DNA from: an uncultured Flavobacteriales bacterium
GTDB taxonomy: Bacteria > Bacteroidota > Bacteroidia > Flavobacteriales_G > Salibacteraceae
Assembly (NCBI GenBank): GCA_905479105.1
Contig: CAJQLE010000004.1
Coordinates: 1-64,000 of the forward strand
Reading direction: 5' to 3'
DNA: 64,000 nt
This document shows, piece after piece, positions 13,664 through 49,546 of the stretch. Every line of letters starts with the position of its first letter. Within the stretch, counting starts at the first letter, position 1. The translations under genes and the position numbers were made by a program. Under the pieces are notes generated by a model, which worked only from the letters and a program-made list of their open reading frames with translations, was not told where the DNA came from and did not search any database.

Positions 13664-14248
13664 TTACTTCAGCAGCATCGTTGTTTGCGGACCTAAATTG
13701 AAAATAGCATCGAGGATGCTCAAGTTGGGCGCAAATTCCTGACGATCATTGAAAACTTGGGTGTATTGTTTGATCTCTTCAGTTTTCAGTTCGAAGGAAT
13801 GACCTCTGAAATCATTTTCATAGTCTGAATATTTCTCACTTTGAGAATAGGGGAGCTCTAACGACAGGATTTTCAGAATGGTATCGTGTAATTCAAGGTT
13901 GAACTCGAGCAATGTTTCTTTTTTCTCCTTATAAAAGGGGAAGAAAAGATGCTCATAATATTCGAAGTAAGGAGAACGTCTATAAGACGCTTCTAAGCTT
14001 TTCCAATGATCTTTTTGCCAATCTTCGGCATAACTGATCTTGACATCCTTCATGGTTCTTCGCAATCCTGTTTTGACGGTTGGAATTGCCAATAGCTGAG
14101 ATCCATTCGGACCCGTAATCAGCATCCTCGATCGAAACGTTTGCTTTGGAAAGTTTTCGCAGATCTCAAAGCAAACTTCTGATTGCGTTAAGCCTCTGTA
14201 GTAGGCAATATTCCCGGCATAGAAAACAGGAAATATGGCTTTACTCAT
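13664..14248 (-). CDS. WbqC-like family protein
   Basis: A 194-aa protein of the WbqC-like family, a group named after an O-antigen cluster gene. The recognisable parts are FPVFYAGNIAYYRGLTQSE near the N-terminus, then SRMLITGPNGSQLLAIPT and YAEDWQKDHWKSLEASYRRS, with the SPYFEYYEHLFFPFY block at about 92-106. The biochemical role is unproven; members occur in surface glycan clusters and, in Bacteroidota, typically just downstream of lepB as here. It starts 1 bp after the lepB stop, so it is almost certainly in the same operon. Confidence 0.85.
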   Translation of the reverse strand: MSKAIFPVFYAGNIAYYRGLTQSEVCFEICENFPKQTFRSRMLITGPNGSQLLAIPTVKTGLRRTMKDVKISYAEDWQKDHWKSLEASYRRSPYFEYYEHLFFPFYKEKKETLLEFNLELHDTILKILSLELPYSQSEKYSDYENDFRGHSFELKTEEIKQYTQVFNDRQEFAPNLSILDAIFNLGPQTTMLLK

Positions 14249-14249
14249 A

Positions 14250-15827
14250 CTATTCTGGTATTGAAAACATTCGTGAGAATCTGATTTTCCCTTCAGAAAA
14301 ACTCAGCTCTGGATCAATGGACAACCAAATAAATGCGGCTTTTCCAACAACATGGTCTTCAGGTACAAATCCCCAAAAACGTGAATCCGCAGAGTTGTGT
14401 CTATTATCACCCATCATGAAGTAATAGTTCAATTGGAAAGTATAATTGGTGGCAATTATGCCGTCAATGTATATTTCTTCGCCTTTTACTTGAAGGTCAT
14501 GATTTTCGTAAACGTGAATGATGCGTTCATAGAAGGGTAAATTTTTAAGATTAAGCTCAACTGAAGTTCCTTTTGCTGGAACGGTTAATGGTCCCCAATA
14601 ATCTTCCGACCAATCATACTGAGGGGAGTTTGGGAATATGTGAAATATGGGACTTGCTCCACGAAGAGAAGCATCCAGCGTTACACTTTTCACAGCATCA
14701 AAAGACTCCATTTGTTTGGCAGCATGCAGTGTTAACGGCAAGAAGTAGGAATAACCATTCTCGCTTTGAGACGTTCGAATATCCTGGTAATTGACATTGA
14801 GTTTTTCCTTTAGGATCTTCTTATTCAAAAAGCTTGTGGTTTCAATTTGGTAGCGGTATTGAAACTCAGATGGGATATATGCCGTTTCTCCATTGATATG
14901 GAGTTTGGCATGTTCCACAAAGATTTCATCTCCGGGCACAGCCACACAACGTTTGATGTAATGCTCTCTCTTGTCAACAGGACGCACGGTGTAGTCCATG
15001 TTCTTCTTAATCAGCTTGCGTGACAACTTGTTGTAGTATCCATCATTTTTGAGTTGTTCACCCCGCATAATGTCGTTTTGCTTAAGCCGATACATTTCAT
15101 CGCGAACCACTTGATTGTAGCTTCTTTCGCTTTGATATTGGATAAGTACTGTATCTCCTTCCGGATAATTGAATACCACAATGTCATTGCGCTCTACATC
15201 TCCAAAACCAGGCAATCTATAATAGGGTAGGCTCATCCAATCCAAATAACTTGGTGTAACTGTTCCTGGAAGACTGTGGTGGGCAAATGGAAAGCTCAAG
15301 GGTGTCTGAGGAACCTTTGGTCCATAAGCCATTTTGCTCACAAATAAGTAGTCACCAATAAGAAGCGTTTTTTCCATCGAACTGGTAGGTATCGTGAATG
15401 CTTCTAAAAAATAAGTTCGGATGATGCTTGCTGCAACTACTGCAAAAACGATGGCATCACCCCATTCGGCTAGCCAAGACTTTGGATGCTTTGAGCGATC
15501 TAAAGGACCATAATACTTAATATCTGATTTCCCCCACATTGGGAAAGCCACAAAGGGTAAGAAAATAGCCAATGCTTGAGAAGCCCGGTCGATCTTGCCG
15601 AAGTGAGAGGCAAGGATGGAGTTGAAAACCATCAACATTAAAATATTTACTCCCGGAAATATGAGGAGCAACATCCACCACCAGGGCTTTTTAATGACAC
15701 GTGTGAGAATGAAGAAATTATAAACAGGAATAGCTCCTTCCCATGATTTTCTTCCAGCCTTCGGAAACAGAAGGTAGAATCCAACCGAATATCCTATAAG
15801 AATGATGCTATATATGATGTAATTCAT
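14250..15827 (-). CDS. lepB: Signal peptidase I (long Bacteroidota form)
   Basis: LepB removes signal peptides from secreted proteins on the outer face of the inner membrane. This 525-aa form has extra N-terminal membrane segments (about 1-95). Next comes the catalytic region [20 protein letters not shown] with nucleophile Ser150, a long insertion, then [16 protein letters not shown] with the general-base Lys. The final box [20 protein letters not shown] is the SPase I signature. E. coli LepB has 324 aa, but lengths near 500 are normal in this phylum. It is followed at once by the WbqC-like gene. Its neighbour on the other side is the exosortase operon, about 110 bp away on the same strand. 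Confidence 0.96.
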
Positions 15828-15941: not shown

Positions 15942-16409
15942 CTAGCTCGATCTCTTGCGCAACCAGATTCCTGGAATCATGACCATTAGAACCAATGGTG
16001 ATTGCGCAACACCCATAAATAGTCGGGCAAGTAAATATGTCTCTTCTAGGGTGTTTGTTGCATAACCATATGCCATCGTAATGACAGAACATGCGATTAA
16101 GACTCCATAAATGATGAGTATTTCTTTCCAGTAAGACGTGTCAAAGATGATCTTCAATAAGCCTATGGTCACTCCATAAAAAAGGACAGAGAATAGGGCC
16201 GTCAGAAACCATTTGGTGTAATAGAGTGTGTAAAAGTCAACTGACTTTAAGCATGGTATGGCGTCTGAAGCACGCGATGGCTCATCATACCAGAGCGCGA
16301 AGAGCTGTTCGTTGATGTGCGTAAAGAGGAATTCACGGAAAAAGCCAAGGATTATAACGGCAATAATCGATGATGCAATGAGTGTTTTTTTCTTTAATGA
16401 ATTACTCAT
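15942..16409 (-). CDS. Exosortase-associated membrane protein (XrtX/XrtF-system type)
   Basis: A 155-aa protein with four predicted membrane segments (about 9-27, 66-88, 95-115 and 124-148) and one periplasmic loop with REFLFTHINEQLFALWYDEP and LYYTKWFLTALFSVLFYG. Small membrane proteins of this size and layout are known companions of Bacteroidota exosortases. The gene start overlaps the exosortase stop by 8 bp, which argues for coupled translation and a shared job. I recall no proven function for such partners; a role in positioning the exosortase or its substrate is inference. It is the last gene of the operon. Confidence 0.75.
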   Translation of the reverse strand: MSNSLKKKTLIASSIIAVIILGFFREFLFTHINEQLFALWYDEPSRASDAIPCLKSVDFYTLYYTKWFLTALFSVLFYGVTIGLLKIIFDTSYWKEILIIYGVLIACSVITMAYGYATNTLEETYLLARLFMGVAQSPLVLMVMIPGIWLRKRSS

Positions 16410-16956
16410 CGGTAGGGGGTTTCATAGAATCAATTCCCGACAGCTTCAATGCCCATAAGTACCAAAGTAAAAACACGAAGCCATATACCAAAAGGGTAAA
16501 GGTATAGGTGTGATTAAAATCAAGCACTGCTGGATCTGGAAAGTAGAATACGATCAATGAGAGTGCTACGATCCGCAGAATGTTTATGATATGAATCACA
16601 ATAATTCCTGCTGGTATAAACCACAGTTTCTTTTTGAGTGGACCTGGATAAGCAATGATAAATCCAGTGAAGAGTGCGAAGAGGGTTAATCCATTGCAGG
16701 GATCTCCAATCCAAAGTCCGTGCGTCCCATCAATACCGATAGTTCTGATATTCTCCACATGACTTGCTTCAATTGTGATGTAACCGAAAAGCTCTAAAAC
16801 AAAATAAGAGGCTTGTTCTAGACTTTTGATAACGGTCATGTCTAAGTCACCCAATGGATGAAGCCACAGGTCGTAAATAAAATACCAGGCTATAAACAGA
16901 AAAACCGCCTTTGTTAGAAAGCGGTATAAAGGATCATTCCAATATTTTGAAAACAT
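16402..16956 (-). CDS. Exosortase family transpeptidase
   Basis: A 184-aa polytopic protein of the exosortase/archaeosortase family. These enzymes cut a C-terminal sorting tail on the outer side of the inner membrane and pass the protein to another anchor. The full catalytic triad is visible: Cys87 in GDPCNGL, Arg128 in NILRIV and His149 in DFNHTYTF. About seven hydrophobic segments surround it. The most likely substrate is the protein with a PID-CTERM-like tail encoded just upstream (15 bp gap). In size it fits the short Bacteroidota types (XrtF or XrtX-like); an exact subtype needs a profile search. The acceptor it may transfer to is unknown. Confidence 0.9.
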   Translation of the reverse strand: MFSKYWNDPLYRFLTKAVFLFIAWYFIYDLWLHPLGDLDMTVIKSLEQASYFVLELFGYITIEASHVENIRTIGIDGTHGLWIGDPCNGLTLFALFTGFIIAYPGPLKKKLWFIPAGIIVIHIINILRIVALSLIVFYFPDPAVLDFNHTYTFTLLVYGFVFLLWYLWALKLSGIDSMKPPTDE

Positions 16957-16971
16957 GATTTAAATCTAATC

Positions 16972-17193
16972 TTACTTAGATCTCATGTCTAAAAGTTTCT
17001 TACTTCCAAAAGCTACGCCTAGAGCAACCAGAAAACTCATACCTCCATCAATAGGGATGCAAGGCGGTGGCCAGCAGCCCGGAGAACCTCCACCCACTGG
17101 AGTTCCACCGCTAGGTTGAGCTATCAATACTTGACTTAGTAATACAAATGCTGCCATAGCCGCTAGGCTGATGTGTGTCTTGGTGATCTTCAT
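16972..17193 (-). CDS. Small PID-CTERM-type exosortase substrate
   Basis: A 73-aa protein built only from sorting signals and a short linker. Residues 1-26 are a signal peptide (ending LIAQ). Residues 27-46 are a Gly/Pro-rich linker with Cys40 and Cys45. Residues 47-51 are the motif PIDGG, followed by a hydrophobic helix (MSFLVALGVAFG) and a basic end (KKLLDMRSK). This motif-helix-basic order is the layout of exosortase recognition tails, and PIDGG matches the PID-CTERM class known in Bacteroidota. The start ATG lies 1 bp after the stop of the 1032-aa T9SS protein gene, and the exosortase follows 15 bp later, so it is surely co-transcribed with both. The role of the mature peptide is unknown. 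Confidence 0.88.
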   Translation of the reverse strand: MKITKTHISLAAMAAFVLLSQVLIAQPSGGTPVGGGSPGCWPPPCIPIDGGMSFLVALGVAFGSKKLLDMRSK

Positions 17194-17194
17194 C

Positions 17195-20100
17195 TTATTT
17201 CAAAATAACTTTTTCGGTCTTGTTTGTTCCGTTAATGTTGATGTTTACAAAGAAAACGCCTGTTTTAACATTTGTCAAATTTATGGATTCTCTAGAGTAA
17301 CCTATTGTTGAAGTATTTCCGTAAACAGTTTGTCCGAGCATGTTGTAGACTTCAATTTTTGCTTCTACGCTTCTATCTAGGAAGAAGTCTGCAACAATTG
17401 TCTTTCCATTTGAAAATACACGAATGTCGTTGTTCGTGAATTCTGTCGGAGCTAAACAATCCTCGTAATCTGACTTACTTAACAATAATTTAAAGTTGAG
17501 AGGATCTAAATCTTCACCCACTTCAAATGAGTAAGAAGCTCCTGGCACAATTTCAATTTGCTCATTGGTTTCCAAATTCAAGAGGTTCTTGCACTGGAAC
17601 TCATCGAATTTATTTAGGCCTTGAAAGTTCATTATGAACTCACCAGGAATTCCACTTTTAATGGTTAAAGGAACTTCTAAATGCTCTTCTGAGGGGTCAA
17701 TGTAATTGACCATACTTTCTTCTCCAGCATAATCCATCCACATATTTACGGCTCTTGAATCAGGAACTTTTAGTGGCTGAAGATCTAACTCATCCACACC
17801 AGAGAAAGCCATATAATCTTTTCTCAAATAGACGGAGCTGGCAAATGAATTTTCTTGATTGGTAACCTTCACCCTGAATTCTTCCTTGGGTGTGTTTTTA
17901 AACCATTCACTTGTATTAAGATCTGATCGAAGGTCAGTCGTAGGGTCAATAGTTAACTCGCTTGCAGTTAGGACATTTATCCAGAAACCTTGACCAGGAG
18001 GAATAAAAGCTCCAGCACCGCGGCTATTGTATTGATTAGAGTCTGCATCGAAATACCAGAACTCATTACCAATTATCATTCCGATGCCTATAAAATTTGA
18101 TAGAACGGACGAAAAATCTAAAAAACCTGGAAGTGGGTTTCCTATTAAATTCCATCTAGATCCAGAAGCATTCACTGGTATGTTGGTTGTTGCCACATTT
18201 ATGGAACTACCCGTAAAGTTCCATGCTTTCGCGTTCCAAGTTGTTAAGTTATCTCCTAACCAAGTTTCAAAGCCTTGGCCTAAGCCCATTGGATTGGTCA
18301 CATTTGTGACTGGGGTATAATCATCAGCAACGTTGTCGTAAGTATACATACTAATAAATGATCCTCCTCCTGCTGCACTCGCGCCACCTTCACCACCAAC
18401 AACTCCACTGATGTAGATCTCATTGTCCAAATCAGAAACAGTAGTGGAAATGCCAGCAGAAGCTAGATCATTCCATCCAGCTGTGCCTCCCGTTTTGAAA
18501 CGTTCAATCGTAAATACACCAGAACTTCCGGTGAAATCTCCGGCAACGACTCTAGCGACATGTCCTTGAGAAGCCGCATCAGAAGTGAACGTTAGACTAG
18601 AATTATTTTGAAATGAGCCATTAATTAAATGAAGACCTTCACTAATAGAAAATGAGCCTCCGGAGAACTCGACATTGTTTGCATTAGAGATTTGGACATT
18701 GGCAAAGGCTTGATTGCCTCCCGATGAATTGTCGACCAATTGAGTGCTGCCTGCAGTTCCTCTAAAAATTACATTAGAACCCGCATCACAGATTAAAGTA
18801 CCCGTATTTGCAATCGAAAGATTTCCATTTATGATTAGGGTTGCATTTGCGTTTACTACTACACTTGCTCCGGTTTCAATATCTAAATTATTTACAGACT
18901 GTGTGTCAGAAACTATTCTAATATGTGGCGAAACTATCGAGGCATCTTTTGTACTATCCGGAAATGTAGCACAGTCCCATTCTCCAACTGTTGACCAAGA
19001 GGCTGAAACACTTCCAAAATCCGAAACGCAAGTTTCACTATTTCCAGTATTCGCTATCGAAAAAAACATTTCGGTACTTAAATCTACATCATTAAATGTA
19101 ACTACATTCCCTACCACAACAGGTGCAATGGCATTATTAGTATTCGCATTCGTAAAGTCATCATCCGAATCTGTTAGAATCCGTAAATTAGTTAGGTCAA
19201 GCCCGAGTAACGTGCTAATTCCAGCCATATCAAAAATTATATCGACTGTGCCGACATCACCTCCTGTTTCGTCAGCAACCCATTCTTGTGTCAGTTTTGC
19301 TCCAGATCCTCCAAAAGATGCAGGAATCTCTACTGCGTCTGCCGTTATCCCACCTCCATCATGTCCCCACATTAAATATTCTCCCGTCCCCAAATCACTG
19401 GCCGCTTGAATTCTTACAATTGAAGTTCCTTGCGCATCGATGTGATTATCTCCAAGTGCTTCTTGACCTATACCTGCTACTTCGCTGCCATGTGTTGCTT
19501 GAAATGAAAATTTATCGTTGGAAATCGTAAGGTCGTATTTCGCTGCAAGATAGTTTTCGATGATAATTTGTTGAGTCGAGTTCACACTCTGGCTCATCAA
19601 TATAAATTCTGCGAGTAATCCACTGAAGAATCGACTGTTTGACAATGATAGCTTTCCAAAAGTAATACGAGAAGCGCCTGATAGAATTCCATTTGCGGTG
19701 GCGTTGGTGCCTGATGTCCCTGAATTTAATCGAGCGGCCAATGAAGGTGTGGCACTATTCCAGATGCTAGAAGTAAGATTGAATCCAGCTTGAAGTAATC
19801 TACCAACTGCTGCATATGATGATGAAGTTGGAGCTGTGTGATAGACAACTGTCCCAGCCTTAAAAATTGAGAATCCAGAATTTGATACCGGCAGCCGAAC
19901 ATTGAATAAATTCTGCACAGTGGGTGATGGTAAGTAAGTGTTAACAGAAAAAACTGAGGTAGCACCAACTCCGCTAAGTGGAGTAGTATTTGAGGTTGCG
20001 TAAAAATCATCAACGCCATCAAAAGAGATGGCAGCTTTGCCATTCACTGAAGAAGTATTATAAATACCTTGTCTAGCGACTGTATTTTGACTAATGTCAT

Positions 20101-20293
20101 TCGTGTTTCCAGAAAAATCAGTAATCGTTTGAACAGAAGCTCCATTTCCCAATCCTAAGCGGGAAGCATCAATCCAATACACGAGATTAGAAGATGAACC
20201 TACACCTCCAGGACCGGTCTGCGCATGACCAAAGTGCATCGAGAAAACGAAAAGCACAATATTGAAAACATGATTTATTTTATTCATAAACAT
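17195..20293 (-). CDS. Large T9SS-exported surface protein with LamG-like N-terminal domain
   Basis: A 1032-aa protein with a signal peptide (1 to about 25, ending GHAQ). A concanavalin/LamG-like domain follows (about 30-250; it opens NLVYWIDASRLGLGNG and ends IENYLAAKYDLTI). The middle part is rich in Asn, Thr and Ser, including a parallel-beta-like stretch at about 450-560. The last 75 residues form a T9SS type A sorting domain (VFSNGKTIVADF, KIEVYNMLGQTVYG, GVFFVNININGTNKTEKVIL). It should be carried across the outer membrane by type IX secretion and attached to the surface. It is the first gene of the exosortase operon and diverges from the polysaccharide locus. The ligand is unknown; polysaccharide binding is a reasonable guess only. 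Confidence 0.88.
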   Translation of the reverse strand: MFMNKINHVFNIVLFVFSMHFGHAQTGPGGVGSSSNLVYWIDASRLGLGNGASVQTITDFSGNTNDISQNTVARQGIYNTSSVNGKAAISFDGVDDFYATSNTTPLSGVGATSVFSVNTYLPSPTVQNLFNVRLPVSNSGFSIFKAGTVVYHTAPTSSSYAAVGRLLQAGFNLTSSIWNSATPSLAARLNSGTSGTNATANGILSGASRITFGKLSLSNSRFFSGLLAEFILMSQSVNSTQQIIIENYLAAKYDLTISNDKFSFQATHGSEVAGIGQEALGDNHIDAQGTSIVRIQAASDLGTGEYLMWGHDGGGITADAVEIPASFGGSGAKLTQEWVADETGGDVGTVDIIFDMAGISTLLGLDLTNLRILTDSDDDFTNANTNNAIAPVVVGNVVTFNDVDLSTEMFFSIANTGNSETCVSDFGSVSASWSTVGEWDCATFPDSTKDASIVSPHIRIVSDTQSVNNLDIETGASVVVNANATLIINGNLSIANTGTLICDAGSNVIFRGTAGSTQLVDNSSGGNQAFANVQISNANNVEFSGGSFSISEGLHLINGSFQNNSSLTFTSDAASQGHVARVVAGDFTGSSGVFTIERFKTGGTAGWNDLASAGISTTVSDLDNEIYISGVVGGEGGASAAGGGSFISMYTYDNVADDYTPVTNVTNPMGLGQGFETWLGDNLTTWNAKAWNFTGSSINVATTNIPVNASGSRWNLIGNPLPGFLDFSSVLSNFIGIGMIIGNEFWYFDADSNQYNSRGAGAFIPPGQGFWINVLTASELTIDPTTDLRSDLNTSEWFKNTPKEEFRVKVTNQENSFASSVYLRKDYMAFSGVDELDLQPLKVPDSRAVNMWMDYAGEESMVNYIDPSEEHLEVPLTIKSGIPGEFIMNFQGLNKFDEFQCKNLLNLETNEQIEIVPGASYSFEVGEDLDPLNFKLLLSKSDYEDCLAPTEFTNNDIRVFSNGKTIVADFFLDRSVEAKIEVYNMLGQTVYGNTSTIGYSRESINLTNVKTGVFFVNININGTNKTEKVILK

Positions 20294-20380: not shown

Positions 20381-20388
20381 TACTTTTG
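20381..20388 (+). promoter_or_regulatory. Candidate Bacteroidota -7 box of the polysaccharide operon
   Basis: TACTTTTG matches the TAnnTTTG consensus exactly. It ends 6 bp before the ATG at 20395, which would make the transcript leaderless or nearly so. I see no good -33 TTG at the usual spacing, so this remains a candidate. Confidence 0.35.
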
Positions 20389-20394
20389 AGGCCA

Positions 20395-22767
20395 ATGAAG
20401 AATGATTCCATTGTGTCTAGAACCGAAATTGTTTGGTTAATATCAATTGTAGTTAAAAACTGGTATTTACTTCTTTTTCTGCCTTTATTTTCTTGGTTAA
20501 CCGCCTACTTCATCTCTTATCGTATTCAAGAAATCTCTTCTGCTTCGTGCCAAATCCTGCTAAAAGATGAAAGTTCATTTCAAAGTAAATTTCAGGAAAC
20601 ATTTAACCGGTCTGCCGCCCCATATTCTTATGAGTATACCGCCGGTCAAATGCGAGTTGTTAAATCTTCTTCTATTCTAGGAAATGTTTTAGATGATTTA
20701 GAGTTAGATGTGAGGTATTTTATTGTGGGGCGATTAAAAGTTACAGAAGTCTACAAACATATTCCCTTTAAGGTTTTGTTTGATGAAAGAGCAAAAGCTT
20801 CTTTTGGCAAAAGGTTTGATATTCAAATTATTGATGCAAACTCTTTTCATTTGTCGTATGAGTCAGACGGAGTTTTAAAAGAAAATATTTTTAAAATTGG
20901 TCAACTAATTACGGATGATGGTTTATACCTTGAAATTCAGCTGCTTAATGGCCGGTTCTACCCATCTCTTCAAGAATTAAATTATCAGTTTCAAATTTAT
21001 CCAAGAGATGCTTTAATTTCTAAATATAAGAGTTCGATATCGGTGGTGAACTTGGATTTTACTTCAATTATTGAGATTTCTCTAACCGATGAAATATCCA
21101 ATAGGGCTGTAGATTTTTTAGAGTCTCTGTCAAAATATTATTTGCAAACGACAATTCAAAATCAGATTGAGGTAAATGAAAATACACTTGAATATATTGA
21201 CGACCTTTTATTTGAGATTTCCGGAGAAGTCAGTAAGGTTGAATTAGAATTGGATTCATTCAAGACTACCAAGAATATTATTGATATTGACAGAGAAGAG
21301 ATTTCTCTTTTTGAGCAGCTTGGTGAGCTAGAGTCTCTGCATCGAAAACTAGAGATGGAACTGTCATCTTTGGACGATCTAGCAGATTACATGTTTAACT
21401 CAGAAAACTCAGATTTGCTTTTGCCTCCTAATATGTTTTTAAGAAACATTGATGAGCAGATATTAGATGAGATGAATAAATTGAGCGAATTAAGGAGAAG
21501 TTATGATAAGAGCTTAATTTCTGGTAAGCCAGATAATCCATTGCTGATCCGCAGAAGTGTCGAGATATATGAATTGAGAAATGAAATCTTAAATTACAAA
21601 TCGAATCAAGAAAAAGCCTTAAGACAAAGAATTGTTGAGATAGGAAGAGAAATAACTTCACTTGAAATGCGTGCAAAGATTATTCCTATCAAGGAACGAC
21701 AGTTATTGAATATTCAAAAGAAAATCTCTGTCAATGAAGGACTTTACGATTATTTGCTTTCCAGAAGAGCGGAATTGCTTATCGCAAAAGCTGGATTAGT
21801 GCCACAGACAAAGGTTATTGAGCAGCCGAGATCAAAAGGTGTGGTCTATCCAGATAAAAATTCAATTTCTTACAAAGCCATACTGGTTGGGTTTTCAATA
21901 GCGATTATCATTATTCTTATACGAGAATTCTTTTTTAGGAAAGTTCGCACAAGAATGGAACTTGAACAACTTACCCAACAGATTATTTTAGGCAGCGTAC
22001 CTTTTCAAATGGGGTTAGACTCAAATTTTAAAATCGACTCAGCTCAGAGTAAAAATTCTATTATACAAGCCTTTAGAAGCTTACGTGCTTCACTTCAGTA
22101 TTTACCAAAGCCAGGTGATTGTCATAAAATTTTGGTTACATCACTTATGCCTGGAGAGGGAAAGACTTTTGTTAGTGCCAATTTAGCATGTATTTTGGCT
22201 TTGGCTGGAAAAAGAGTTTTAATAGTAGATCTAGACATGCACAAACCACGATTACATAAGGTCTTGGGCGCGGAGTTATCACCCGGGGCTAGTAATCTTT
22301 TGTCTCGAGGCGATGATTTAGAATCGTTAATCCAAAAAACGCACTTAGATCACCTTTTTGTGATTAGTGCAGGTCCGATACCACCAAATGCCTCTGAATT
22401 GGTTCTACAAGACGGCATCAACGAGTTGATTAAATTTGCAGACAAAAACTACGATTATTTAATAATAGACACACCTCCCACGGCTCTGATTGCTGATAGT
22501 CTGGCATTGATGCCTAAAGTTGACGTTAAATTGTTTGTTTGTAGTACGAAAAGTACGAGCAAAACTTCGGTGGACTATATCGAAAGAATCATTCTGGATA
22601 ATCAAATTAAAGGAGCTGCTTTAATATTAAATAGAGAGAAACGAGAAAGGCTGGATTATTATTATTCAAAGTATGGCTATGGCGGTTATGGCTATGGCTA
22701 TGGCTATGGCGGTTATGGCTATGGTTACAATAATGAATATGTTGATGATTCTAGTAGTTCAGTTTAA
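20395..22767 (+). CDS. Wzc-type polysaccharide co-polymerase with tyrosine autokinase
   Basis: A 790-aa inner-membrane protein that controls chain length and assembly of surface polysaccharide. The order is TM1 (about 20-42), a Wzz-type periplasmic domain with long coiled-coil segments (about 240-450), TM2 (about 492-513, ending IREFFF) and a cytoplasmic BY-kinase domain. The kinase has Walker A in MPGEGKTFVSANL (about 584-596), Walker A' in VLIVDLDMHKPRLH (about 608-621) and Walker B in YLIIDTPPT (about 690). The C-terminal tail (about 754-780) is a Tyr/Gly repeat that should be the autophosphorylation cluster. ATG at 20395 is preferred to the TTG at 20386. It leads the locus, directly followed by Wzm/Wzt. 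wzc is the nearest named relative. Confidence 0.93.
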   Translation: MKNDSIVSRTEIVWLISIVVKNWYLLLFLPLFSWLTAYFISYRIQEISSASCQILLKDESSFQSKFQETFNRSAAPYSYEYTAGQMRVVKSSSILGNVLDDLELDVRYFIVGRLKVTEVYKHIPFKVLFDERAKASFGKRFDIQIIDANSFHLSYESDGVLKENIFKIGQLITDDGLYLEIQLLNGRFYPSLQELNYQFQIYPRDALISKYKSSISVVNLDFTSIIEISLTDEISNRAVDFLESLSKYYLQTTIQNQIEVNENTLEYIDDLLFEISGEVSKVELELDSFKTTKNIIDIDREEISLFEQLGELESLHRKLEMELSSLDDLADYMFNSENSDLLLPPNMFLRNIDEQILDEMNKLSELRRSYDKSLISGKPDNPLLIRRSVEIYELRNEILNYKSNQEKALRQRIVEIGREITSLEMRAKIIPIKERQLLNIQKKISVNEGLYDYLLSRRAELLIAKAGLVPQTKVIEQPRSKGVVYPDKNSISYKAILVGFSIAIIIILIREFFFRKVRTRMELEQLTQQIILGSVPFQMGLDSNFKIDSAQSKNSIIQAFRSLRASLQYLPKPGDCHKILVTSLMPGEGKTFVSANLACILALAGKRVLIVDLDMHKPRLHKVLGAELSPGASNLLSRGDDLESLIQKTHLDHLFVISAGPIPPNASELVLQDGINELIKFADKNYDYLIIDTPPTALIADSLALMPKVDVKLFVCSTKSTSKTSVDYIERIILDNQIKGAALILNREKRERLDYYYSKYGYGGYGYGYGYGGYGYGYNNEYVDDSSSSV
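22675..22730 (+). repeat. In-frame tandem GGY/YGYG-coding repeat
   Basis: Units of TATGGC and GGTTATGGC are repeated head to tail inside the BY-kinase gene and encode an alternating Tyr-Gly tail. Such a run can gain or lose six or nine bases without a frameshift, so the number of phosphorylatable tyrosines could vary between strains. Confidence 0.85.
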
Positions 22768-46437: not shown

Positions 46438-47358
46438 TTAGAAGCGAGCTCTTCCCATTCGGCCTCTCTTGCGGCCATAAAGGTAATTTTTTCTTTTTCC
46501 GAAGCTTTTAGACTTGCCTCTGATTACGTAGGAGTAATTCAAGCTTATAGTTAAGAAACTGTCATTTGCATCTGGGTTTCCACGAATCTGACCTGGAACA
46601 TATACTTTGGCTAATTCTTGAGCCAGTGGATGATTGGCAACCTCTCCGGTTCTGTTAGAAAGAGCAACAGCTTCTGGGCTTTGTAGTAATTCTGTTTTTG
46701 GGTATAGAGTACTTACATCATCGATGTAATCTGTGAATGTATATCGGTAACTCAACTTCATTCCAAATCGGTGAAGTCTTGAAAACGTATAAAAGAAACC
46801 AAAGCCTAAAGGAACAGCAACTTGAACTGCACTGTACTGAGTTTCGAGTGCTTCAGTATTTAAAGGACGTAAGGCCATCCACTCCCCATTCAACTGAGCT
46901 TTTGGATTGTTATAGAAAACTGATAATCCTCCGAAGAAATAAGCTTTAAAATCCAACAAGTACCTTCCAGTTCGTCCAACATCTGCTTGATTGAAGAAAT
47001 AATATTCCCCAGTCAGACCAAGTTCAAAAACGTCATTTCGAAAACTTAAATTTCTTGTAAATCGATTTGGGTTTTCAGTTAAACTATCAGCACCCTGCAG
47101 ACGCAAATACTCTAAGCTTAATGTTATACCCAAATTATAATTAGCTCTATAACGAACAAATGCACCTGGATTCCAACGTGTTTGATCCAACTTCATGTCT
47201 AAAACCCAGTCTCTTGCTAGGCTTGGACCGCCACCAATCTCACCCAAGTAATTCGCCCCTCCAGCACTAACACCAACATCCCAAGCGTACTGAGCGCGCA
47301 GGTTTGGCGCAGTAAAAAGAAGGATCGATAATCCGATGATGAATTTAAGTTGATTCAT
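46438..47358 (-). CDS. DUF6089-like outer-membrane or secreted protein
   Basis: A 306-aa protein with a signal peptide (MNQLKFIIGLSILLF and on to about residue 22). The mature part begins WDVGVSAGGANYLGEIGGGP, the usual opening of DUF6089 proteins. Alternating beta-strand patterns (LGITLSLEYLRL, FELGLTGEYYFF, HRFGMKLSYRYTFTDYIDDV) suggest an outer-membrane barrel-like fold. The C-terminus is very basic (GKRKNYLYGRKRGRMGRARF). ATG at 47358 is preferred to a longer start because it begins the signal peptide. The function is unknown; relatives are widespread in Bacteroidota, several near envelope genes. Confidence 0.83.
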   Translation of the reverse strand: MNQLKFIIGLSILLFTAPNLRAQYAWDVGVSAGGANYLGEIGGGPSLARDWVLDMKLDQTRWNPGAFVRYRANYNLGITLSLEYLRLQGADSLTENPNRFTRNLSFRNDVFELGLTGEYYFFNQADVGRTGRYLLDFKAYFFGGLSVFYNNPKAQLNGEWMALRPLNTEALETQYSAVQVAVPLGFGFFYTFSRLHRFGMKLSYRYTFTDYIDDVSTLYPKTELLQSPEAVALSNRTGEVANHPLAQELAKVYVPGQIRGNPDANDSFLTISLNYSYVIRGKSKSFGKRKNYLYGRKRGRMGRARF

Positions 47359-47462
47359 AGACAGTTTGCAAAAGTAAAATTTTGAGCTCACAGATTACTA
47401 AGTTATTGTAGAATCAATATTTATCTAATCTTAAGGCAATTAGAACCTGCGTTAAAGCGTTG

Positions 47463-47470
47463 TACTTTTG
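47463..47470 (+). promoter_or_regulatory. Candidate -7 box of the T9SS type B protein gene
   Basis: TACTTTTG fits TAnnTTTG exactly and ends 15 bp before the ATG at 47486. A clear -33 element is not visible. Confidence 0.4.
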
Positions 47471-47485
47471 TACTCTGGTTTGAGA

Positions 47486-49546
47486 ATGATTAGGAAATAT
47501 CTTTTTTCTCTTATTGCCATCTTTTTGATGGTCAACTTGTTTGCGCAAACAGAACCATCGTTGCGCTGTATTTCTCTTGATGAAAATCAGGATGCTACCC
47601 TTTCTTGGATACAGCCCGCTGACACAGGGTCCGACTTCAATGCCTATTTACTTTACTATCGAAATAACGTTGCTAACTCTTTTTCAATAGTTTCTCAAAT
47701 CACTGACTTTAATCAGACATCTGTCTTGGTTAATGGAAACTATGCCACGTTTGGGCAATTTACACTTGTTCAAGTAGTCAATGGTTTTGTTGATACGAGC
47801 GCTGCTTTAGACACGGTTTCTCCTATCGTTTTAGGAATTTCATCTTCTGGTCGTGTTGTGAGTTTAGGATGGAATAATAGTGGTCTTGAAAGCCAAGATT
47901 CCATTTATCGTCTTTATAAAAGTGATTTTTTGGGCAATTGGACTCAACTGGAAACTTTTGATTTCCCACTGACTGCGGCACACGACACAACTGTTGCGTG
48001 CAAAGAAGAAGTGTTATATCGCCTTGAAGCCAAGGGGGTGGGTGGTTGCATAAGCAGATCTAATCAGGCTACTAAAAATGTGATTGATGATTTAGCACCT
48101 GCTCAAACTAACCTCTTATGCGCAAGTGTGGATACAGCAACTGGATTGGTGAATTTAGAGTGGTCTAAAAGTGTTTCGGAAGACACGTATGGCTATATGC
48201 TTTTTTACTTTGAGGACTTTAATAGAACCGATACCATATTTGGTAGTGATAGTTTATCATACACGTATTATAAAAATGGAATCGATGCTTTGTTGAGGCC
48301 AGAAACGCTCTCAGTTGCCCCTTTTGATAGTTGCTTTGATTCGGTGAACTTATGGTACAATCAAGCCGCAGATAGTCTCAGGTTTAGCACAATGTTTATA
48401 GACACTGCAGCTTTTGATAAATGCTCTGGTAAATTGGCTTTTGAATGGCCAATGCCTCGCAAAGGCTTTCCAGTTGGAGTGAGGAATTTATCAGGATTCA
48501 GAGTGTATCGCCAAGATAATAACGAAACGCCTCAGGTTATTTCTGTATTGTCTTCGCTTGATTCTGTTTTTTTAGATAGTGGATTAGTCGCGGGTAATAA
48601 ATACACGTATGTAATCTGCCCTTTTGATGAAATAACGGGTAAAGAGGCATTGTCTAATAAAATAGTGATTGACTTGGGTAAGAAAAACAGGCCTGACTAT
48701 TTATACATCAAGAGTATCGTAAACAATCATGAGAGTGGTCTCAACGCGATTAATGTTTACGCAGATACTACGGCAGAAACGGTCGCTTACGGATTATGGC
48801 GATCTATGACAAATGACAATAAATTTATGAAAGTGGAAGTGGTTGATGAGGATTTGACATCTGAATTCCCCATATCAGATGAAAGTGGAAGTGCTTCTCA
48901 AACGCCTTACTATTATCAAGTCTTTGCATATGATCAGTGCAATGAAGTAATTGGCCGATCTCAAATTGCTAAAAGCGTTTATGTTCAAGGAACTAAAAAC
49001 GTTCAAGATTTAATTAATAAGGTTACTTGGACGAATTACGAGGGTTTCGATACTGCCGATACAGATGTTGATTATTACAACCTTTACAGGGTCACAACCG
49101 GATCAAACGAAGACCTTCTATACTCTGATGAACGCACTTTTAAGTACACAGATAACCTTGAAGCAATCGATTTGGTGAGTGGGTCAATCTGTTATTATGT
49201 TGAAGCGCAAGAAACGAGCGGAAACGTTTATGGATTCGATGAGGCATCAGTTTCCAATTTACTTTGCTTTGATTATCCACCGACAGTGTTTTTGCCAAAT
49301 GCTTTTACGCCAGACAATGATGGAAGAAATGATAGTTTTTTGCCCTTGGTAAACTTTATTGATCCGACCAATTATGAATTGGTGATATATGATCGCACTG
49401 GATTGTTGATTTTTAAAACCAATGATCCTTTTGAGGGTTGGAGTGGAGATAGCGAAAACACTGGGGTTTATGCTTATCGATTGGTGCTTTCGAATGCCCG
49501 AGGCGAAACGATGAACTACGCAGGAAAGGTGCAGTTAATTCGTTAG
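47486..49546 (+). CDS. Gliding-motility-associated C-terminal domain protein (T9SS type B cargo)
   Basis: A 686-aa secreted protein with a signal peptide (MIRKYLFSLIAIFLMVNLFAQ). Several fibronectin-III-like beta domains follow (about 25-600), for example LRCISLDENQDATLSWIQPA and VDTATGLVNLEWSKSVSEDT. The last 90 residues are the conserved C-terminal domain PTVFLPNAFTPDNDGRNDSF, NYELVIYDRTGLLIFKTND and GWSGDSENTGVYAYRLVLSN. This domain directs export by the type IX system (type B sorting) in gliding and non-gliding Bacteroidota. ATG at 47486 is chosen because it starts the signal peptide. The specific role is unknown. Confidence 0.9.
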   Translation: MIRKYLFSLIAIFLMVNLFAQTEPSLRCISLDENQDATLSWIQPADTGSDFNAYLLYYRNNVANSFSIVSQITDFNQTSVLVNGNYATFGQFTLVQVVNGFVDTSAALDTVSPIVLGISSSGRVVSLGWNNSGLESQDSIYRLYKSDFLGNWTQLETFDFPLTAAHDTTVACKEEVLYRLEAKGVGGCISRSNQATKNVIDDLAPAQTNLLCASVDTATGLVNLEWSKSVSEDTYGYMLFYFEDFNRTDTIFGSDSLSYTYYKNGIDALLRPETLSVAPFDSCFDSVNLWYNQAADSLRFSTMFIDTAAFDKCSGKLAFEWPMPRKGFPVGVRNLSGFRVYRQDNNETPQVISVLSSLDSVFLDSGLVAGNKYTYVICPFDEITGKEALSNKIVIDLGKKNRPDYLYIKSIVNNHESGLNAINVYADTTAETVAYGLWRSMTNDNKFMKVEVVDEDLTSEFPISDESGSASQTPYYYQVFAYDQCNEVIGRSQIAKSVYVQGTKNVQDLINKVTWTNYEGFDTADTDVDYYNLYRVTTGSNEDLLYSDERTFKYTDNLEAIDLVSGSICYYVEAQETSGNVYGFDEASVSNLLCFDYPPTVFLPNAFTPDNDGRNDSFLPLVNFIDPTNYELVIYDRTGLLIFKTNDPFEGWSGDSENTGVYAYRLVLSNARGETMNYAGKVQLIR

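Follow-up and report, generated by a model that had tools for sequence, protein, structure and literature searches.

An exosortase X operon in a Salibacteraceae genome whose client may be a paired type IX-secreted protein and PID-CTERM peptide

In the XrtA/PEP-CTERM (EpsH) system, substrates end in a tripartite C-terminal tail and the exosortase is encoded near exopolysaccharide (EPS) genes, including one for a Wzc-like kinase. We describe here an exosortase locus from an uncultured Flavobacteriales bacterium of the family Salibacteraceae (GCA_905479105.1, contig CAJQLE010000004.1; 'the window' is the whole stretch analysed, positions 1 to 64,000). The locus shares the tripartite tail, the exopolysaccharide neighbours and the Wzc-like kinase with XrtA/PEP-CTERM, but it is found in Bacteroidota, carries a PIDGG motif, encodes one mini-substrate rather than many larger ones, and includes a partner exported by the type IX secretion system (T9SS). 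The exosortase F (XrtF) system of Flavobacterium johnsoniae also combines a Bacteroidota exosortase with an associated protein, and deletion of xrtF has been linked to surface colonisation, with the XrtF substrates left to future work (PMC10936215). The window enzyme, however, falls under the XrtF cut-off and scores far better as exosortase X (XrtX). The exosortase X system catalogued in NCBIfam (NF046081, NF046080 and NF046082) resembles the window in its enzyme, tail motif, accessory family and gene order, XrtX then accessory protein, although the window accessory protein scores below its cut-off and the module that precedes the T9SS tail lies outside these models. No papers on PID-CTERM or XrtX were found in the literature searched, which did not include the notes behind the NCBIfam models. 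Finally, the T9SS protein of the window shares a type A tail fold, and similarity in the region preceding that tail, with RemA, the gliding adhesin of F. johnsoniae, and its homologue RemZ (PMC10994853). This likeness spans only part of the module and is one of sequence and fold rather than of demonstrated lectin activity, movement on the cell or pairing with a PID protein. FspA of F. johnsoniae was considered as an exosortase peptide and dropped, because it is a T9SS cargo with its own C-terminal domain (CTD; PMC10994853).

The locus consists of four minus-strand genes spanning 15942-20293, in the order T9SS protein, PID-CTERM protein, XrtX and membrane protein. In our interpretation, it is an operon for exosortase X sorting that serves a T9SS/PID cassette of two genes, the processed peptide acting as partner or anchor of the T9SS protein, and we place the probability of this interpretation at about 0.5. 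Judged from gene arrangement across genomes, the true unit is the cassette of T9SS protein and PID peptide, accompanied by XrtX either in cis or in trans, usually near polysaccharide genes. The features of the operon are:

17195..20293, minus strand: T9SS type A surface protein, 1032 residues, at the operon head (TIGR04183 and PF18962, over cut-off); its parts are a signal peptide, a ConA/LamG-like N-terminal region (weak evidence), the pre-tail module and a C-terminal T9SS sorting domain
17414..18922, minus strand: pre-tail module of that protein, residues 458-960 (the region used for profile A1)
16972..17193, minus strand: PID-CTERM mini-protein, 73 residues (NF046080, over cut-off)
16402..16956, minus strand: exosortase X (XrtX), 184 residues (NF046081, over cut-off)
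15942..16409, minus strand: relative of the XrtX-associated membrane protein, 155 residues, four hydrophobic segments (NF046082, below cut-off)

By profile matching, three of these four genes are the trio already catalogued in NCBIfam. A sequence-only reading of the locus had described gaps of 1 bp and 15 bp and an overlap of 8 bp, and the open reading frame (ORF) coordinates agree exactly. From this spacing we infer that the four genes form one transcript; a promoter and terminator scan of the locus gave results at chance level. Profile searches (NCBIfam, Pfam) also upheld the identities that had been assigned to the four products. The 184-residue enzyme scored 194.8 bits against NF046081 (cut-off 170) and 88.9 against TIGR04128 (XrtF), slightly below the cut-off of 90. 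Its Cys87, Arg128 and His149 are intact, as claimed, and are invariant in 106/106 aligned XrtX sequences. The 155-residue protein, taken for a four-helix partner, does contain four hydrophobic segments by hydropathy. It aligned with nearly the whole NF046082 model (56.3 bits, E = 2.7e-15; cut-off 75) and is, by sequence and position, a clear relative of the XrtX-associated membrane protein rather than a formal family member. In our survey of XrtX-type loci, a gene for this membrane protein is conserved beside XrtX in relatives.

The evidence supports a dedicated set of enzyme, substrate and partner, as had been proposed. XrtX is the only exosortase of the host genome, and the single PID-CTERM match in that genome is adjacent to it. 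Across 296 genomes, PID genes were present in 48 of the 91 with any XrtX-model match and in 0 of the 205 without one; they were present in 36/37 genomes with XrtX over cut-off. The 73-residue protein scored 37.5 bits against NF046080 (PID_CTERM; cut-off 26) and is laid out as a signal peptide, an ectopeptide of ~25 residues with the motif CWPPPC, the PIDGG motif, a hydrophobic segment and a basic tail (signal peptides and signal-peptidase sites of PID proteins were judged by eye and hydropathy). In 94 of the 101 XrtX-adjacent PID proteins, the 20 residues that precede PIDGG contain two Cys, mostly as CWPPPC (window 17020-17100), a motif that falls outside the 25-position NF046080 model. With its Pro-rich spacer, this Cys pair may form a small disulfide loop. 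Among the listed PID proteins encoded away from XrtX, none shows Cys in this stretch, which is Pro-rich and 11-23 residues long. Searches of PDB sequences with XrtX and with the PID protein returned no credible relatives.

The sequence-only reading had named a gene-neighbourhood survey across Bacteroidota as a check, and in this survey homologues of each gene occur, with their order kept, in many genomes; the locus is therefore not a product of chance. We mapped 126 non-redundant XrtX-type loci. The presence of a T9SS cargo in the operon had been called unusual, which the survey does not support: within the family the arrangement is common, a T9SS-tail gene standing next to PID in 13 of the 15 loci with enough upstream sequence (G298, G299, G301-304, G306, G307, G309, G310, G314, G315 and G318, with G303 and G315 partial; G313 and G316 were negative; contigs were assigned to loci by their length). 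In two of these genomes (loci L034 and L035, from G302 and G304), the T9SS-PID pair is opposite in orientation to the pair of XrtX and accessory gene, tail to tail, each pair being intact, as though an inversion had affected one of them. Homologues of the 1032-residue protein stand at operon heads in other genomes. Within the genus, a full-length homologue was found in all eight other XrtX-positive genomes (one partial at a contig end) and in none of the four XrtX-negative genomes, some of which are incomplete. Over all 126 loci, 31 T9SS-tail genes lay upstream of XrtX on the same strand and within 500 bp, and 27 lay elsewhere, scattered over the flanks. The presence of the T9SS gene requires ~10 changes on an XrtX tree, which is a quick tree with many weak branches. 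Separately, three loci (L073, L080 and L090) lack a PID gene and have, upstream of XrtX, a gene for a large protein. This protein (~1490 residues in the two complete cases) has no T9SS tail, ends in a charged stretch and is possibly a different client.

Genomes of other families have as many as nine PID genes, which usually lie far from XrtX. We built a profile (A1) from the pre-tail module of the operon-head T9SS proteins and, after it matched genes directly upstream of many of these dispersed PID genes, fetched 60 regions around them. A local PID model located 60 PID genes; for 52 of these, the preceding gene is on the same strand and encodes A1 together with a T9SS tail. Ten further PID genes, missed by the local model and inspected by coordinate, all follow a gene with A1 and/or a T9SS tail, so that 62 of 68 evaluable dispersed PID genes do so (2/70 lie at contig ends; 52/58 without the by-coordinate rescue). 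Of the aligned partner proteins, 62/63 were independently called T9SS type A (NCBIfam TIGR04183). The baseline for this pairing is the frequency of T9SS tails in the host genome (94 per 2.79 Mb) rather than matched random small genes. The A1 boundaries, the 1500-bp adjacency window, the sampling from XrtX-positive genomes and the rescue of ten PID genes were set after the data were seen, and the dispersed samples are not independent, many coming from family f24 and from duplicated cassettes. The pairs are spread over about 12 families (dispersed in f5, f10, f22, f24, f43 and f51; XrtX-adjacent in f1, f3, f52, f53, f58 and f59). Two further genomes, G115 and G033 (the latter from coordinates only), suggest the same T9SS-PID-exosortase order, and their exosortases score lower against XrtX. 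In genome G112, the T9SS gene before PID appears split into an A1 ORF and a tail ORF that overlap in different frames; this occurs in two look-alike copies (L245 and L248), both among the ten cases inspected by coordinate. The pairs persist even when the PID genes lie at a distance from XrtX, which supports a link between the sorted peptide and the T9SS protein with evidence beyond the reach of the sequence-only reading.

The partners themselves are homologous to each other, module A1 being common to the T9SS proteins that precede PID genes. The 1032-residue protein scored 33.1 bits against TIGR04183 (cut-off 23) and 34.1 against PF18962 (cut-off 27). An AlphaFold2 model of residues 560-1032, built from 63 sequences, had a mean predicted local distance difference test score (pLDDT) of 86.9, and its final 80 residues match T9SS CTDs (RemA, Z = 10.0; NucA, 10.3; mirolase, 10.4), with the CTD structures aligned at model residues 396-473 (Z = 9.7-10.4). 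Beyond the sorting tail, fold searching with the C-terminal half returned no clear relative, which does not exclude one, and the pre-tail module is covered by no Pfam or NCBIfam model. The A1 profile matched RemA (E = 2.3e-20) and RemZ (E = 2.5e-15), in alignments that covered only part of the module. The matches of A1 to Kelch repeats in the PDB cover short stretches, most of them in designed repeat proteins, and we attribute them to chance. We also dropped A1 as an XrtX-specific marker, since it matches XrtX-less genomes as well as T9SS proteins of very large size that come without PID. A ConA/LamG-like domain may make up the N-terminal region: of 10 homologues, two had a Laminin_G_3 match there (best E = 7e-08), and many fold matches of its model were lectin-like beta-sandwiches, although the model (mean pLDDT 54) is too poor for more than a hint. 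Searches with the single sequence and with a profile found no paralogue of the operon T9SS protein, outside its tail, in the host genome. That genome (2.79 Mb) encodes ~94 T9SS type A tails over cut-off, as well as the T9SS translocon SprA (TIGR04189, 2511 bits).

Several observations count against a strict partnership. A clade of ~28 XrtX loci has PID and no adjacent T9SS gene, and it holds most of the T9SS-less PID loci; thus, PID does not in every case require its partner in cis. In the window's own genus, one XrtX-negative genome (G296, locus L202) encodes a T9SS protein of 1129 residues with A1 and has no PID or exosortase gene nearby. More generally, A1-bearing T9SS proteins without a PID gene exist, RemA and RemZ included. 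Within genomes, co-divergence of the partners is weak (r = 0.41, p = 0.026), and this value is raised artificially by pairs of PID genes that have a T9SS gene in common.

The surroundings of the operon bear on where a processed peptide might go. Divergent from the operon lies:

20386..22767, plus strand: Wzc-like chain-length/tyrosine kinase (TIGR01007, over cut-off)

This gene opens a polysaccharide locus that reaches to ~45.9 kb and includes glycosyltransferases, an epimerase, an acyltransferase and asparagine synthases; the two genes that follow it resemble an ATP-binding cassette exporter (sequence, by eye). Of the 97 loci for which a long upstream stretch was available, 48 have a Wzc gene upstream of XrtX. 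Distant families, too, have XrtX beside genes for polysaccharide export and sugar nucleotides, a location that fits a glycan acceptor. At the far end of the polysaccharide locus (window 46438-49546) are a DUF6089 protein and a divergent 692-residue protein with a CHU_C T9SS tail. On the other side, 114 bp downstream of the operon and on the same strand, a signal peptidase I of 525 residues with an N-terminal DUF5684 (window 14250-15827) is followed by a 194-residue gene (window 13664-14248), an order kept in L033 and L041. A gene of ~424 residues recurs downstream of the operon in relatives; reading its sequence, we take it to be serine hydroxymethyltransferase (glyA), and it was set aside as an unrelated neighbour.

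If the cassette is the client of XrtX, the mini-protein would be exported by Sec and its leader removed by signal peptidase. By analogy with exosortase biology, XrtX would then cleave it near PIDGG in the inner membrane and pass the ectopeptide, a Pro/Gly-rich stretch of roughly 15-30 residues, to a lipid or glycan supplied by the neighbouring polysaccharide genes. The peptide would arrive at the surface and there act as the partner of the T9SS protein encoded with it, or as its anchor, a role suggested by the gene pairing, with contact probably made through the module preceding the sorting tail. The outcome would be a lectin-like surface protein tied to the cellular glycan layer. 

Among other explanations, the one that survives best, though we consider it rather doubtful, is that the PID mini-protein is an assembly factor in the inner membrane or periplasm, which escorts, plugs or checks its T9SS partner until the XrtX cut ends its role. 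The tight pairing of the T9SS and PID genes agrees with this, as does the very short, Pro/Gly-rich ectopeptide (11-23 residues before PIDGG in dispersed cassettes), which is too small for an obvious surface domain. Yet XrtX loci sit beside polysaccharide export and synthesis genes, like exosortase systems that are presumed to work on surface products; one clade retains PID and XrtX with no T9SS gene beside them; and, with ~94 type A tails to one PID gene, most T9SS proteins of the host need no PID partner. An unlikely alternative makes the peptide a free secreted or EPS-bound product with a job independent of the T9SS protein, the two being merely co-regulated for biofilm formation or surface colonisation. 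It would account for the clade with PID and no neighbouring T9SS gene, and loss of xrtF in F. johnsoniae impairs surface colonisation, as T9SS mutations do (PMC10936215), but the repeated T9SS-PID cassettes within one genome exceed what co-regulation would require. We think it very unlikely that the T9SS gene is a passenger in an operon of functionally meaningless order, as might arise if surface-protein genes cluster near polysaccharide loci: T9SS genes are common in the host genome and the locus does border a large polysaccharide cluster, but in distant genomes the pairing tracks the PID gene rather than the polysaccharide locus, T9SS genes elsewhere around XrtX are scattered and rarely adjacent, and the T9SS partners are homologous to one another.

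The preferred reading, an XrtX-processed peptide that acts as partner or anchor, also has a stronger form that we regard as highly improbable. Here, the T9SS sorting enzyme would attach the co-encoded protein covalently to the PID peptide on its lipid or glycan. If this were true, exosortase and T9SS would constitute a single sorting line across two membranes, in which each cargo has a dedicated peptide linker, an alternative to the anionic lipopolysaccharide (A-LPS) anchor known in Porphyromonas gingivalis.

Exosortases are widespread in Bacteroidota, and the T9SS-PID pairing connects two protein-sorting systems that are usually handled separately. It points to a partner to assay, by which the function of exosortase X becomes testable in cultivable relatives. 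The pairing recurs over much of the phylum and so offers a concrete clue to the purpose of the unstudied exosortase X enzymes.

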